From the NCBI GenBank assembly GCA_016191845.1, contig JACPVF010000001.1, positions 1 through 51,201 of the forward strand: a stretch of 51,201 nt of DNA, read 5' to 3'. How positions within the stretch are numbered: the first letter of the stretch is position 1; the number at the start of each line of letters is the position of its first letter. The notes beneath the pieces were generated by a model that was given only the letters and a program-made list of their open reading frames with translations, was not told the DNA's origin and did no database searches. The translations under genes and the position numbers were made by a program. This stretch comes from Chloroflexota bacterium (GTDB taxonomy: Bacteria; Chloroflexota; Anaerolineae; Anaerolineales; Villigracilaceae). Shown piece by piece: positions 371 to 32,530 of the stretch.

Positions 371-445
371 GGCGCCCCTGGCGGGTCTCGAACCCACAAC
401 CTACTGATTCGAAGTCAGGCACTCTATCCATTGAGCTACAGGGGC
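370..445 (-). tRNA. tRNA-Arg (anticodon TCG)
   Basis: Read on the minus strand, the acceptor arm GCCCCTG pairs with CAGGGGC. The D arm carries AGCTC...AGAG, the anticodon loop is CTTCGAA giving anticodon TCG (reads CGA), and the T arm contains GGTTCGAGACC. The discriminator base is G and a CCA end is encoded (370-372). Removing the CCA gives 373-445. Confidence 0.95.
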
Positions 446-27725: not shown

Positions 27726-28841
27726 ATGCGACTCCGTTTATTGGTTCTGATCCTGATCCTCTCAGCTTGTACCGCTCCGCCTATCGTCGCGACGCCCACA
27801 CCTGCACGACTCGAAGCTGCAGTCGTTGCCGACACCCCCACACCCACCCTCATCCCATCTCCGACTGCCACACCGACTGCGGAGGAGTGGATCTTCCCTT
27901 ACACGATCGCGGGCCTGCGCCAGCACGACTTCCAAAGCGGGAAAGTGACCGTCCTCGAAACGCTGGAAAAGACGGACGTTTACACCCGTTATCGTATTTC
28001 CTATCCCAGCGACGGCCTGACCATCACGGGCATCCTCCAAATCCCTGTTGAAGGACGTGAGCCGTTTCCCGTCATCGTGATGAATCATGGCTTCTTCTCG
28101 CGTTGGGAGTATCACTCGGGTGACGGCACCGACCGCGCGGCCGAATTCCTCAATCGGCGCGGTTACCTGACCGTCTCCTCGGATTATCGCAGTTGGGGCA
28201 ACTCAGATGTCGGTCCCAGCCTGTTCTACTCGGGTCTGGCCATTGACGTGGTCAATTTGATCTGTGCGTTGCCGTCCATCCCGCAGGCGGACTCGTCGCG
28301 CGTGGGCCTGTGGGGACATAGCATGGGCGGCGGTGTGACCATGAAGATGCTGATGCTCGACCCTTCGACAAGCTCAGGGTCTGTTCGCGCGGCGGTGTTA
28401 TACTCCACCGTCAGCGCCGATAACGCGGACCTGGTCGAGCGCTGGGGCATGGGCTGCATTGGCGACATTGCCGAAGGCGAGGCACGTTACGGCTGCAATT
28501 CCTCCGACGTGCTGCCCGAGTCCCTACCACAGGGGTTGATCTCCGCCTATGAATTCGCCGCACTGGACACTGACCTGAACAAGGCTGTTTCCCCGTACTA
28601 CCATCTCGACCTGGTCCAGATCCCCGTTCAGATTCACTATGGCACCGCCGATGGCGTCGACTATGCTGGCACGCCGCCCGATTGGTCGAAGAAACTTTAT
28701 CAGGGTCTGGTCGATGCCGACCGTCCCGCCGAGATCTTTGCATACGACGGCGAGAAACATTCGTTCTTTGCCGATGAGTGGTTTGCCTTCATGGAACGCA
28801 CTGCGGCGTTCTTCGATACGTACGTGAAGGGCGCGCCATGA
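27726..28841 (+). CDS. Alpha/beta-hydrolase lipoprotein
   Basis: The 371-residue protein has a lipoprotein signal (L-I-L-I-L-S-A-C) and a Thr/Pro-rich spacer, then an alpha/beta-hydrolase of the dienelactone-hydrolase/S9-like type. V-M-N-H-G-F forms the oxyanion site, G-H-S-M-G-G holds the nucleophilic Ser, and late D-G-V-D-Y and E-K-H-S-F give the likely Asp/His. The segment D-P-S-T-S-S-G-S right after the nucleophile helix is encoded by an inserted copy of the repeat core at 28361-28379. The stop overlaps the next start (ATGA), so the two are translationally coupled. Confidence 0.87.
   Translation: MRLRLLVLILILSACTAPPIVATPTPARLEAAVVADTPTPTLIPSPTATPTAEEWIFPYTIAGLRQHDFQSGKVTVLETLEKTDVYTRYRISYPSDGLTITGILQIPVEGREPFPVIVMNHGFFSRWEYHSGDGTDRAAEFLNRRGYLTVSSDYRSWGNSDVGPSLFYSGLAIDVVNLICALPSIPQADSSRVGLWGHSMGGGVTMKMLMLDPSTSSGSVRAAVLYSTVSADNADLVERWGMGCIGDIAEGEARYGCNSSDVLPESLPQGLISAYEFAALDTDLNKAVSPYYHLDLVQIPVQIHYGTADGVDYAGTPPDWSKKLYQGLVDADRPAEIFAYDGEKHSFFADEWFAFMERTAAFFDTYVKGAP
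28361..28379. repeat. Repeat core inside the hydrolase coding region
   Basis: CCCTTCGACAAGCTCAGGG, a palindromic core that recurs intergenically (for example near 39657-39676 as CCCTTCGGCAAGCTCAGGG), lies in frame and encodes P-S-T-S-S-G. Confidence 0.85.
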
Positions 28842-31321
28842 ACTTGAAGCGTTTATTGGTTTCCCTGATATTTCTGGTAATCCTGTCTGCTTGTGCCGCG
28901 CAGTCTGTAGCTACCCCTGCGCCGACCGCCGTGATCCCAGCCTCACCTTACGATGGCGAGTGGAAAGGGGAATCGACCCTGCAAGATGGCCGTCCCTTCA
29001 CGCTGACCTTCAGTGTCGAAGGCGGGCGCCTGCGAGGGATCGTCTACAAGTTTCCAGGTACCGATGGGATCGACTGTAACGGCATCGAGTACGGCCTGAT
29101 CGACGCGCCGCAGCGACCTGCCCTGGAAGGGAGTCACCTCGATGCTCCACTGGGCGTGGACCTGAACCTGACCGCCGCCTTCGAGGGGGACTCCGCCTCT
29201 GGGCATCTGTCCATATACTGGAGCGGACACCAGCCGCGCTGTAACGGCACCTATGACCTCGATTGGACCGCCACGCGACAAACTCCCCCAGCGGCGGCGC
29301 AAACGCCTCCATCCACATCGACCAACCGACCGAACCCACTCGCTACGTTCTTCCAGATCCTCATCTTCGGTCTTTCGAATGGCGCGGTCCTGGCGCTCAA
29401 TGCCATCGGTGTGACCATCATCTACAGCACGGTCCGTACGCTCAACCTGGCACATGGCGATGTCTTCGCGCTGACCACGGCCCTGGTCACTTCCACGATC
29501 AATGCGGTGGGCATTTCCCAGAATTGGCCGCCGCTTCAACTGACCCTTGCGCTGGTCCTTGTGCTGCTGGCCGCGGCCGGCGCGGGTGCTCTCCTCAGCA
29601 TGGGTGTGGACCAGTTCGGCTTCAGGCCGTTCCGCGGATCGTCGCGTCTTGCGCCGCTGATTGCCACGCTGGGTCTTTCCTTCATCTTATTCCAAGGCGC
29701 GCTGGTTTGGCGTACCTTCCAGGGTTCGTGGATCCCTGGCGAGCACCGCAGCGTGCCTGGCCTGCCCGAGGTCCCCACCGACGGCATCCCCAGCCTGTTG
29801 CCCGAGATCAACCTGGCCGCGAAACTCGGGATTCCCAATCTGGTCATCCGCTTCAGTGACCTGCTCATGCTGATGCTGGCCTTGCTCTTCGTGCTGCTGG
29901 CAACCTGGTTCTTGAATCGTACCCGCACGGGGCGTGCCATCCAGGCTCTGGCGCAGAACACGCAGGCGGCACAGATCATCGGCGTGAATGTTGATGCTGC
30001 CATCCGCCGTGCCTTCGCCGTGGGCGGAGCCTTCGCGGGCGCGGCGGGGTTCATCTTTGCGTTGTATTATGCACGTCCGTTTGGGGCGCACGGCGCGCAG
30101 AGTGGACTGCTGGCCTTTGCGGCGGCGTTGTTGGGCGGCATTGGTTCACCCGTCGGGGCGCTGGTCAGCGGTTTGACCATTGGCGTGGTTTCCTCGCTGA
30201 GCGACTACTATCTGTCTGCACAGTGGACGCCTGTGCTGATGCTGGCTTTGCTGGTGGTGCTACTGGCCTGGCGCCCGTATGGGCTGGCTGCTTCGGGCGG
30301 GGCGGGGACGGAGTCCGCTTTACCGCGCGACTCGGTCCTGGCCGCGGGGTCAGGCACCAGGTCCGGGATCTGGCTTTGGGTTTTGCTGGCGGCGCTCGGT
30401 CTATTCCCAATCCTGTCAGATGCGCTCGGCTGGGGTGGTCAGGTCATCTTGCGCTCGGTCGAGGTCTTCATCCTGCTGGCGCTTGGTCTCAATCTGGCGC
30501 TCGGCCTCTCAGGCCTGCTCGACTTCGGCTTTGCAGCATCCTTTGGCGTCGGTGCGTATGCAGGTGCGCTGCTCAGCCGCTTCGACGCAAGCGTAGCCCT
30601 CCTGGCAGGAATCGTGCTGGCGGCGGGACTGGGTGTATTGAAGGGGATGTTGGCTCATCGGCTGCGTGGGGACTTCCTGGCCGTGGCTACGTTGGCGCTG
30701 GGATTGCTCGTCCGCCAGGTGGCGATCAACCTGCCGACGCTGACGGGTGGGGCGGGCGGTCTGGGCGGATTCCCCGCCTTGCACTTCCTGGACCTGCGTT
30801 TTGCCAGCCCGACGATGAAGTTTTATCTCGTCTATGGCGTGGTCCTGTTGGCCGCGCTGATGAGCCGTCGCCTCGCGGAGTCGCGCACGGGCCGCGCCTG
30901 GCTGGCCTCCAGCGAGGACGAGTCCGCCGCCCTCTCGCTGGGCGTGGACGTGAACCGCTCGCGGCTGTGGGCCTTCGTGTTCAGTTCGGCACTGGCGGGT
31001 CTGGCGGGGGTGTTGTACGCGGGTACGCTCTCCTACGTGGACCCCGAGACGATGTCCTTCCATGTCACTTCGATGGCGCTGACGATGGTCATCCTGGGTG
31101 GGGCGGGCAGCGTCCCTGGGGCCGTGATCGGCGCGGCGGCCATCGTGCTGTACGACAAGGTCTTCGTCCCGCAACTGGCAGATTGGGCCGCGCTGCTCTG
31201 GCCCAGCGGACTCGCCATCGGTTCCGCACCTGATATTCGTGGTGCGAGCTTCTTCAACTTCGGCATTGCGCTATATCTGACCGTGTTGATCCGCGCGCGG
31301 CGACGCAACAAAAACGCTTGA
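28838..31321 (+). CDS. Lipoprotein domain-LivH-LivM triple fusion (branched-chain amino acid ABC permease)
   Basis: The 827-residue protein starts with a lipoprotein signal (V-I-L-S-A-C19) and an outward beta-rich domain (about residues 30-150, Y-D-G-E-W-K-G-E-S). A LivH-type permease follows (from about 165, G-L-S-N-G-A-V-L-A-L-N-A-I-G-V and the E-A-A-like loop R-T-G-R-A-I-Q-A-L-A-Q-N), then a LivM-type permease (from about 508, G-L-L-D-F-G-F-A-A-S-F-G-V-G-A-Y-A-G-A and S-R-T-G-R-A-W-L-A). LivH and LivM are normally separate and pair with LivG/LivF ATPases and a soluble LivJ; none of those is nearby. The N-terminal lipoprotein domain could not coexist with standard LivH topology without a new first crossing, so its role (anchor or substrate delivery) is inferred only. 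Confidence 0.85.
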   Translation: MNLKRLLVSLIFLVILSACAAQSVATPAPTAVIPASPYDGEWKGESTLQDGRPFTLTFSVEGGRLRGIVYKFPGTDGIDCNGIEYGLIDAPQRPALEGSHLDAPLGVDLNLTAAFEGDSASGHLSIYWSGHQPRCNGTYDLDWTATRQTPPAAAQTPPSTSTNRPNPLATFFQILIFGLSNGAVLALNAIGVTIIYSTVRTLNLAHGDVFALTTALVTSTINAVGISQNWPPLQLTLALVLVLLAAAGAGALLSMGVDQFGFRPFRGSSRLAPLIATLGLSFILFQGALVWRTFQGSWIPGEHRSVPGLPEVPTDGIPSLLPEINLAAKLGIPNLVIRFSDLLMLMLALLFVLLATWFLNRTRTGRAIQALAQNTQAAQIIGVNVDAAIRRAFAVGGAFAGAAGFIFALYYARPFGAHGAQSGLLAFAAALLGGIGSPVGALVSGLTIGVVSSLSDYYLSAQWTPVLMLALLVVLLAWRPYGLAASGGAGTESALPRDSVLAAGSGTRSGIWLWVLLAALGLFPILSDALGWGGQVILRSVEVFILLALGLNLALGLSGLLDFGFAASFGVGAYAGALLSRFDASVALLAGIVLAAGLGVLKGMLAHRLRGDFLAVATLALGLLVRQVAINLPTLTGGAGGLGGFPALHFLDLRFASPTMKFYLVYGVVLLAALMSRRLAESRTGRAWLASSEDESAALSLGVDVNRSRLWAFVFSSALAGLAGVLYAGTLSYVDPETMSFHVTSMALTMVILGGAGSVPGAVIGAAAIVLYDKVFVPQLADWAALLWPSGLAIGSAPDIRGASFFNFGIALYLTVLIRARRRNKNA

Positions 31322-31346
31322 CGCCTCACCCTCTCTGGACTAGAAT
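31318..31346 (+). promoter_or_regulatory. Sigma70-type promoter ahead of the RIO-kinase leader
   Basis: TTGACG (31318-31323) and TAGAAT (31341-31346) are spaced by exactly 17 bases. The -35 overlaps the stop codon of the LivHM fusion. Predicted start is near 31353. Confidence 0.7.
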
Positions 31347-31382
31347 CCCGATATCTCACCCGAAAGGAGGCACGTGACATCG

Positions 31383-31451
31383 ATGAAAGCCATCTCAGCG
31401 TCTGTCCAGACTTGTTTCTGCGCGCCTCTTTTTGGTGTAGGCCTCGTATAA
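31383..31451 (+). CDS. Short ORF in the leader (22 residues)
   Basis: A 22-codon frame begins at ATG 31383 (alternative GTG at 31374) after a strong AAAGGAGG at 31363-31370, and ends TAA at 31449-31451. It encodes a peptide with T-C-F-C-A-P-L-F. The ribosome site can pair with GCCTCTTT at 31424-31431, so translation and folding would compete. I do not recognise it; it could be a regulatory leader peptide or part of an RNA element that is not translated. Confidence 0.4.
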   Translation: MKAISASVQTCFCAPLFGVGLV

Positions 31452-31508
31452 CTTTACGAGAGCTTTGTCTTCCACCCGCAGGCGCGTCATGCCCTGCGGT
31501 TTTGTTTT
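31443..31508 (+). terminator. Hairpin plus terminator of the leader
   Basis: CTCGTA/TACGAG (31443-31460) is followed by CCGCAGG/CCTGCGG (31476-31482, 31493-31499) and TTTTGTTTT. It lies 50 bases before the RIO-kinase gene and would end a transcript of about 150 nt. Confidence 0.75.
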
Positions 31509-31558: not shown

Positions 31559-32530
31559 ATGAATAGAAATCAATGGGTCGAGTTCTTCGAAGACCTCGAG
31601 GACTCCGACGTAGAGCATCCGCTGTCCTCGCAGAAACATCTACAGCGGAAACGTGAATCGAAAAAGAACGAGACCGACGCCAGGCTGTTCGTCCGTGCGC
31701 AGGAACTTTCGCGTGAATTCCAGTTCACTTACAAGGCCGCCCGCTTCGAGGAAGCCTGGCTGCTGGATTCGTTGTTCGATATTGCCGAGCATCAATGGAT
31801 CTCGGATGTGTTGCGCAAGGTCAAGGGCGGAAAGGAGGCCTCGGTCTATCTGTGCAAGCCAGGTGCGGCCATCCCTAACACAGATTACGTGGCCGCCAAA
31901 GTCTATCGTCCGCGCATGCTGCGCAACCTGCGCAATGACGGTCTCTATCGTCAGGGCCGCACCGACCTCGATACCGAGGGCCGCCAGGTCATCGACGACG
32001 GCATGCTGCACGCCATGCAGAAGAAGACCGAGTATGGCCGCGAATTGCTGCACCAGTCCTGGATGGCCTACGAGTTTACGTCCATGCAGGATTTACATGC
32101 CGCAGGCGCAGACGTCCCTGAACCGTACACTCTGTCGAACAACGCCATCTTGATGGAGTACATCGGTGATCTGGATGGTTCCGCGCCGACGCTCAGCGAG
32201 GTGGGGCTGGACCGCACTGAGGCGGGGGCGCTCTTCGAGCGCGTCCTGCGCAACCTGGATGTGATGCTGACTCACGAGCGTATCCATGGCGATCTCTCAG
32301 CGTACAACATCCTGTACTGGGACGGCGATATCACCCTGATCGACTTCCCGCAGGTGGTTTCACCCAGGATCAACCGCCACGCATTCCGCATCTTCGAACG
32401 CGACGTGAAGCGCGTGTGCGATTACTTCTCGCAGCAGGGAGTCCGATCCGACCCCAAATCTTTGGCTCAGGAGTTGTGGACTTCACATGGCTATAACCTT
32501 CCACGCGAGAAGCCCGAAGAAGAAGAGTAA
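31559..32530 (+). CDS. RIO1-family serine/threonine protein kinase
   Basis: The 323-residue protein has the RIO1 phosphate loop V-K-G-G-K-E-A-S-V-Y (88-97), the catalytic lysine K114 in A-A-K-V-Y-R, the long RIO insert with R-N-D-G-L-Y-R, the catalytic loop H-G-D245-L-S-A-Y-N and metal-binding I-D262-F-P-Q. All active residues are present. In archaea and eukaryotes RIO1 works in small-subunit ribosome maturation; bacterial members are less studied. The N-terminus is rich in acidic and Lys residues. Expression is likely tied to the leader and terminator just upstream. Confidence 0.93.
   Translation: MNRNQWVEFFEDLEDSDVEHPLSSQKHLQRKRESKKNETDARLFVRAQELSREFQFTYKAARFEEAWLLDSLFDIAEHQWISDVLRKVKGGKEASVYLCKPGAAIPNTDYVAAKVYRPRMLRNLRNDGLYRQGRTDLDTEGRQVIDDGMLHAMQKKTEYGRELLHQSWMAYEFTSMQDLHAAGADVPEPYTLSNNAILMEYIGDLDGSAPTLSEVGLDRTEAGALFERVLRNLDVMLTHERIHGDLSAYNILYWDGDITLIDFPQVVSPRINRHAFRIFERDVKRVCDYFSQQGVRSDPKSLAQELWTSHGYNLPREKPEEEE

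Follow-up and report, generated by a model that had tools for sequence, protein, structure and literature searches.

The leader that precedes a RIO-domain protein kinase gene in a Chloroflexota bacterium of the class Anaerolineae probably functions, judging from sequence comparisons, as a ribosome-mediated transcription attenuator, most likely reporting translation stress. It is found in a stretch of 51,201 nucleotides (hereafter the window; contig JACPVF010000001.1 of assembly GCA_016191845.1), and appears to be a copy of an as yet unnamed family residing in Anaerolineae. The architecture of the attenuator, made up by the pairing segments, both alternative pairings, a small reading frame, a promoter and a terminator, is strongly supported. 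The signal is most likely translation stress in general; translation of the frame, the timing and the trigger are parts that we infer. The trigger should be general rather than one amino acid, because no codon pattern was seen.

Organization of the leader

A promoter, a Shine-Dalgarno sequence (SD), a frame of 22 codons, a region able to pair with the SD, a small hairpin and a terminator, with the RIO gene beginning 50 bases past the T-run, had been listed in a sequence-only reading of this DNA, and all were found in place (Table 1). The terminator, which sits between promoter and RIO gene, is predicted on its own at -15.3 kcal/mol, and its stem is followed by the tail TTTTGTTTT. The 158-nucleotide leader folds at -57.8 kcal/mol, vs. 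a mean of -41.1 in shuffled sequences (standard deviation 3.84, z -4.34; 0/200 as good). In the predicted fold the region around the SD is paired with GCCUCUUUUUGG within the small frame, and GCCTCTTT (31424-31431) is complementary to the SD. Segment 2 is, however, doubly complementary, a feature that the sequence-only reading did not include, because it also pairs with the 5' arm and loop of the terminator (AGGCGCG, 31480-31486). The mutually exclusive antiterminator predicted in this way would draw on the terminator 5' arm, and the switch would be trp-like, with the SD itself as first strand.

Four segments would make up the switch: the SD (1), the anti-SD in the frame (2), the SD-like 5' arm and loop of the terminator (3), and its 3' arm (4). 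With no ribosome on the leader, segments 1 and 2 would pair, and 3:4 would terminate transcription. A ribosome reading smoothly would reach segment 2 and block the antiterminator, and 3:4 would again terminate. Were a ribosome to stall on the start or on the first codons, segment 1 would be covered and segment 2 left free as segment 3 emerges; 2:3 would then form, and RNA polymerase would continue into the RIO gene. Ribosomes might be held by a translation inhibitor, by failing elongation, or perhaps by a faulty 30S subunit.

Table 1. Features of the leader and of the adjacent RIO gene in the window
Feature	Position	Strand	Remarks
Promoter TTGACG-17-TAGAAT	31318..31346	+	10/12 consensus bases
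SD AAAGGAGG	31363-31370	+	Precedes the small frame
Segment 1, SD core GGAGGC (switch strand 1)	31366..31371	+	GGAGG invariant in 14-leader alignment; covarying pairing with segment 2
Small frame, 22 codons + TAA, MKAISASVQTCFCAPLFGVGLV	31383..31451	+	ATG at 31383, invariant in 14-leader alignment; TAA at 31449-31451
Segment 2 GCGCGCCTCT, anti-SD, alternatively putative antiterminator strand	31420..31429	+	Inside the small frame
Small hairpin between frame and terminator	31443..31460	+	Overlaps the stop codon; terminator scan and fold
Segment 3 AGGCGCGT, SD-like, terminator 5' arm and loop	31480..31487	+	Helix with segment 2
Intrinsic terminator	31476..31508	+	Stem 31476-31499 (CCGCAGG / CCTGCGG); T-rich tail 31500-31508
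RIO-domain protein kinase, 323 residues, putative regulated gene	31559..32530	+	PF01163, E 1.4e-35

The promoter motif is weak by itself (1 occurrence in a stretch of 2.2 kb, vs. 0.6 expected after shuffling), but of 163 distinct regions upstream of leaders 129 score at least 9/12, vs. about 9.6 when shuffled. The transcript is expected to start near 31353. The -35 hexamer overlaps the stop codon of the upstream gene (28778-31321), in which two branched-chain permease stretches lie within one reading frame. A G-poor tract spans bases -15 to -6 before GGAGG throughout the family (31351-31360 in the window), G accounting for no more than 6% at every position in the 163 upstream regions; perhaps the tract is an unstructured standby site. 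The sequence of the small hairpin is not kept across an alignment of 14 leaders. The RIO kinase is closest, among NCBIfam models, to RIO1-like kinases, with scores below their cut-offs.

Covariation of the two pairings

In 13 leaders of the 14-leader alignment, every one of the seven bases of CGCGCCT is paired with AGGCGCG in the arm and loop of the terminator, and changes at these positions preserve a G-U pair. Over 99 leaders (98 distinct), 92.6% of the cells of the antiterminator helix (segments 2:3) are paired, and 5 of its 7 pairs are changed on both sides. Cells with double changes number 28, vs. 11.2 expected from shuffles (0/500 as good), and when the helix is slid out of register pairing does not exceed 61.9%. 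The covariance models used for searching, R1 and R2, were trained mainly on RIO leaders and do not contain this helix. They do contain the SD:anti-SD helix and the terminator stem, and the percentages of paired cells for these (95.1% and 99.4%, respectively, in the 98 distinct leaders) lean on the search model; 2 of the 6 SD:anti-SD pairs are changed on both sides.

Both duplexes weaken when partners are swapped between leaders. No swap was as good for either duplex among 2000 with 53 representatives, among 5000 with 99 representatives, and among 5000 with 32 representatives from other orders, the leaders of which had been fetched with a model untrained on them, save one class-level leader in its alignment. 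Swapping had no effect in the control, SD vs. terminator arm (1481/2000). Swaps as good per 5000 within single groups were, for the SD and the terminator duplex respectively, 0 and 0 in RIO leaders, 1 and 0 in DrrA-type leaders, 0 and 15 in RsgA leaders, 16 and 84 in leaders of exporters plus GNAT genes; relatedness inflates the swap tests, as the frame tests reported below, and the within-group and other-order repeats lessen this inflation without removing it. The duplexes of segment 2 with segments 1 and 3 overlap in 50/53 representatives, and in 31/32 from other orders. Covarying sets are exemplified by GGAGGTACGCA, which pairs with TGCGTACACCTG and CAGGTGTACG, and by GGAGGCGCACTAC, which pairs with GTAGTGCGCC and GGTGCAC.

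The 53 representatives were drawn from 86 leaders, left after 5 of 94 distinct ones had been skipped by the detector (L034, L043, L045, L067 and L082) and three had been dropped for wrong terminators (L036, L109 and L115); the same set served for the first duplex and the folding tests. All parts were detected in 197/203 leaders in the larger swap test, and in 39/40 in the other-order test (L284 was missed). L045, from another class and lacking a standard SD, was kept out of the pairing tests. Covariation of SD:anti-SD and anti-SD:terminator pairings, together with the kept frame and the conserved promoter and terminator, singles out the attenuator among the functions that the sequence-only reading had put forward.

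Folding of nascent and full-length leaders

Nascent RNAs of the 53 representatives were folded with the terminator 5' arm and loop present, the 3' arm absent, and ribosome sites masked. The antiterminator exceeds 0.5 in 48/53 leaders when the initiation site is covered, in 37/53 with a ribosome at codon 4, in 11/53 with a ribosome at the stop codon, and in 1/53 with a ribosome on segment 2. Values for the window copy are 0.035 with no ribosome, 0.553 with the initiation site covered, and 0.0 with a ribosome on segment 2. In this copy it is therefore a ribosome stopped right at the start that clearly frees the antiterminator.

Other values weigh against the proposed switch. The antiterminator exceeds 0.5 with no ribosome in 27/53 leaders, and pairing of segments 1 and 2 hence does not lock every copy firmly. 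For the window copy the value is 0.036 with a ribosome at codon 4, and 0.446 with a ribosome at the stop codon; these figures fit start-site stalling, not a simple rule by which a finished frame means off, and the ribosome at the stop codon is ambiguous. Moreover, at equilibrium the terminator of the full leader wins in 41/53 leaders even with the initiation site covered (0.985 vs. 0.004 for the antiterminator in the window copy). Since the terminator usually wins at equilibrium, control must be kinetic.

The same switch could report the supply of ribosomes or 30S subunits, being on when frequent initiation at the strong SD keeps segment 2 free, and off when initiation is scarce and the SD pairs with the anti-SD, so that expression would track ribosome abundance instead of stress. 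Segment 1 is the SD itself, and initiation directly opposes the anti-SD; a covered initiation site is the state favouring the antiterminator most (48/53), and RsgA and RIO proteins would be made alongside ribosomes. Growth coupling is not suggested, however, by the presence of exporters, MFS transporters and GNAT genes behind the leader, and the antiterminator is lost once a ribosome has moved onto segment 2 (1/53), which makes supply sensing unlikely. The set of downstream genes (RsgA, drug exporters, GNAT, MFS) fits a report of translation stress.

The small frame

The frame and its ATG are conserved across leaders, yet changes show no third-position excess. Differences between similar frames (45 pairs) are about equally distributed across codon positions 1, 2 and 3 (102, 73 and 79), and therefore the residues of the frame do not look selected. 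The string T-C-F-C, singled out in the sequence-only reading, is indeed present in the window copy, but is peculiar to it among the copies read. A conserved peptide was rejected on the codon-position counts, and the meaningful leader peptide that had been considered is not supported. An amino-acid attenuator finds no support in 169 distinct frames, in which no residue dominates (the most frequent, S, accounts for 12.4%) and no run of control codons occurs. The frame may rather serve as a track for the ribosome, its length and stop position being of importance, its residues not.

Segment 2 is read in one reading frame in 44/53 representatives, at 13 spacings ranging from 30 to 84 bases; one of these cases (L035, spacing 81) is a misplaced duplex outside the frame, and the count without it is 43/52. 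Several RsgA leaders read segment 2 in another frame (A-R-L). The stretch SAPP is found in 49/169 distinct frames, and the window copy reads CAPL. X-P-P in many copies and the prevalence of a single reading frame for the anti-SD would suit a regulated arrest peptide, in which a stall on an S-A-P-P-like stretch, dependent on EF-P or on a signal, sets the RNA fold. But the window copy has lost Pro-Pro, as have the copies reading A-R-L and L-R-A-S, the residues upstream of the stretch are not conserved, and a ribosome sitting on it blocks the antiterminator. RAPP-type arrest peptides have been described upstream of diverse genes, and the tolerance of the RAPP motif to mutation is limited, according to excerpts of PMC12992588. 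RAPP itself is found in 0/169 distinct frames, and identity with these peptides, which would call for an R-A-P-P-like core near the C-terminus, was rejected. Arrest on the nascent peptide is thus very unlikely.

Leaders upstream of RIO genes

The RIO protein of the window was compared with 61 genomes, 18 of which have a match. Upstream DNA is readable at 16 loci and at L024, which encodes a second RIO paralogue (34% identical); L022 and L023 are cut by contig ends. The leader lies directly upstream of the RIO gene in 15 of the 16 loci and at L024. At the sixteenth, L020, it precedes rsgA, the end of which overlaps the start of rio (rsgA-rio operon). For the window's order, the leader is hence present at 17/17 RIO loci of this set that have readable upstream DNA; one of them, L019, was recognised by eye alone (E 0.13 with R2, the second model; E, expectation value) and is absent from the later alignment. 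Conservation upstream of orthologous RIO genes, proposed as a check in the sequence-only reading, was thus found, the frame and the RNA pairings being kept, the residues not. Shared by these leaders are AAAGGAGG and an ATG that follows the first base of GGAGG by 10 to 17 bases. The frame runs to about 19 to 26 codons and contains GCGCGCCTCC or a related form, and the terminator has the pattern CCGCAGGCGCG...CCTGCGG-T.

The leader at L020 (3533-3705, minus strand), by preceding overlapping rsgA and rio genes, links RIO to a 30S maturation factor. A second terminator of the CCGCAGG type is found between the leader terminator and rio at L008, L010, L012, L013, L015, L018 and L024. At L036 an additional small reading frame separates the leader from the RIO gene.

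A scan of named genomes, which we take by their names to be Chloroflexota, yielded 62 loci with RIO relatives. R1 finds the leader on the sense strand at 44/62 (E<=0.02), and gives E 0.16 at L109, a locus of Ornatilinea apprima P3M-1; with R2 L109 reaches E 0.0012, and L114 E 0.019. Of the remaining 16, three (L110, L124 and L133) have next to no DNA upstream of the gene. The upstream DNA of L108, L111, L112, L113, L116 to L122, L134 and L136 matches neither model; several of these loci show an SD and a short frame by eye.

Distribution and downstream genes

At E<=0.001, R1 detects the family in 21/400 genomes sampled across the phylum, and in 33/101 relatives. R2 detects it, at the same threshold, in 226/400 genomes of the order, 130/210 among those of good quality. 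At E<=1e-5, R2 finds 28/400 genomes of the phylum sample, 20 in the family of the window (its own genome included), to which the rest of the order adds 6, the rest of the class 1 and another class 1; in a sample of the class the count is 72/396, 46 of which lie outside the window's order. The possible member in another Chloroflexota class (L045:1501-1650, minus strand) precedes an MsbA-like exporter gene and lacks a standard SD; its E with R2 is 2.8e-8, but its leader belonged to the training set of that model.

Downstream genes were assigned with Pfam and NCBIfam for references, and by similarity to the references for other loci. The 103 loci obtained from model matches include 58 RIO kinases, 25 DrrA-type ABC ATPases, 8 RsgA, 5 MsbA-type exporters, 3 GNAT acetyltransferases, 2 MFS transporters, 1 Xaa-Pro aminopeptidase and 1 alpha/beta hydrolase. 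Shares are biased towards RIO, because the loci, apart from copies in the window's own genome, were picked from the better-scoring matches listed, and RIO leaders had made up most of the training set of the models. Two doubtful loci of an initial 105 were left out: L246 (LeuS gene, E 0.016) lacks a T-run, and L247 (ABC ATPase, E 0.054) lacks an ATG at the usual place. L247 (1501-1637, minus strand) may be an extra copy in the window's own genome (C10). Forty matches chosen from other orders of the class precede 18 RIO, 6 RsgA, 6 MsbA-type, 2 DrrA-like, 4 GNAT (one below the Pfam cut-off), 1 MFS and 1 methyltransferase genes, and 2 genes with no Pfam match. A well-scoring leader at L048 (1501-1651) precedes what looks by eye to be a decayed GNAT gene, the start of which resembles the GNAT gene of L038.

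The element, as the sequence-only reading had not recorded, has multiple copies, and these stand in front of more than one type of gene. In the genome of the window, copies precede an MsbA-like exporter gene (C13, E 1.9e-9), rsgA (C10, E 4e-8) and, with a weak match, a GNAT gene (C5, E 0.0064), not counting three weaker matches (E 0.14 to 0.40). In the GNAT copy SD and terminator arm both read GGAGCGCAC. These copies were found by the covariance model; plain DNA similarity gives, besides the window, weak short matches only.

The leader could be a separate short transcript, for a small protein or a small RNA, the downstream gene being a mere neighbour. It has its own promoter and a full terminator, and a second terminator precedes the gene in some copies. 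This is highly improbable, as the same gene families recur behind the leader on the same strand, including even the rsgA-rio operon, covariation links the anti-SD to the terminator arm, and the peptide is not conserved. A free small RNA, suggested in the sequence-only reading, is accordingly not supported as main function of an element standing before a recurrent gene set, though a terminated RNA of about 155 nucleotides is still expected. Four stretches in viral contigs selected by a strict pattern were also considered as virus-borne copies and rejected, none showing the leader terminator over the about 170 bases read.

No named class had been recognised in the leader, and in fact Rfam covariance models give no match to it at E<=10. 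At gathering score the only Rfam match in the whole window is a tRNA gene (373-445, minus strand), and 20 related loci yield only tmRNA, away from the leader. A leader binding a ligand or a protein (riboswitch or autoregulation), with the small frame incidental, would account for the strong structure (z -4.34) and its conservation across many genera, but is the least probable reading: besides the lack of Rfam matches, the invariant positions are those of pairing segments, ATG and terminator, the frame is kept, and the number of unrelated proteins encoded downstream argues against autoregulation. The riboswitch initially listed is not supported either, given the lack of Rfam matches and the nature of the invariant positions.

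Discussion

The leaders may define a class-wide translation-stress regulon of Anaerolineae, run by one RNA switch in which the SD of a throw-away frame senses, the terminator carries a decoy SD, and RsgA, RIO kinases, drug exporters and acetyltransferases are joined; the chances of this proposal being right or wrong seem to us even. If true, it would place bacterial RIO kinases among the factors mending or shielding ribosomes under inhibitor stress. The leader would group genes by shared signal, RIO kinases with RsgA (once in one operon) and with exporters, and would give a specific, testable prediction about RIO kinases. It would also mark uncharacterised transporters and GNAT enzymes of common environmental bacteria as candidate defences against translation inhibitors.

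To our knowledge, attenuators that sense inhibitors have been described chiefly in Firmicutes, Actinobacteria and Escherichia coli, and the papers found agree. Open-licence papers yielded no work on such attenuators in Chloroflexota, and no description of the family was found in them or in Rfam. In trp-type attenuators, pairing of segments 1:2 with 3:4 alternates with pairing of 2:3. This four-segment logic is common to the Anaerolineae leader, which differs in lacking a run of control codons and in having the SD as segment 1. The word stem 'Chloroflex' is absent from the main text of a 2010 survey of attenuators (PMC2965389).

Comparisons with three further systems are based on excerpts of the papers cited. 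The toiL leader of topAI in E. coli also has a small upstream frame, which senses several classes of ribosome inhibitors, tetracycline stalling ribosomes at the start codon according to the section headings (PMC12121999); the Anaerolineae leader, unlike toiL, has an intrinsic terminator. In Bacillus subtilis, bmrB precedes the ABC drug exporter bmrCD, and forms a translation-dependent terminator/antiterminator switch whose antiterminator is reported to be less stable than its terminator (PMC4191407). The antiterminator is likewise the weaker structure in most Anaerolineae leaders folded at full length (41/53). The terminator of bmrB lies inside the frame, and an anti-antiterminator role was left open (PMC4191407), whereas the Anaerolineae frame ends before the terminator and SD:anti-SD covaries.

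The rli80 leader of hflXr in Listeria monocytogenes has a short frame over an anti-antiterminator, followed by antiterminator and terminator, and controls a ribosome-rescue factor; mutation of its ATG keeps the switch off (PMC6310831). The Anaerolineae leaders share this layout. In contrast to rli80, which has a 14-residue frame with an R-L-R motif, drug-specific stalling and one locus (PMC6310831), they have no conserved peptide, use the SD as first strand, and reside at many loci before several gene types. The family would thus work like rli80 and bmrB; what appears to be new is one alignable family placed before several gene types, with the SD as first strand of the switch.

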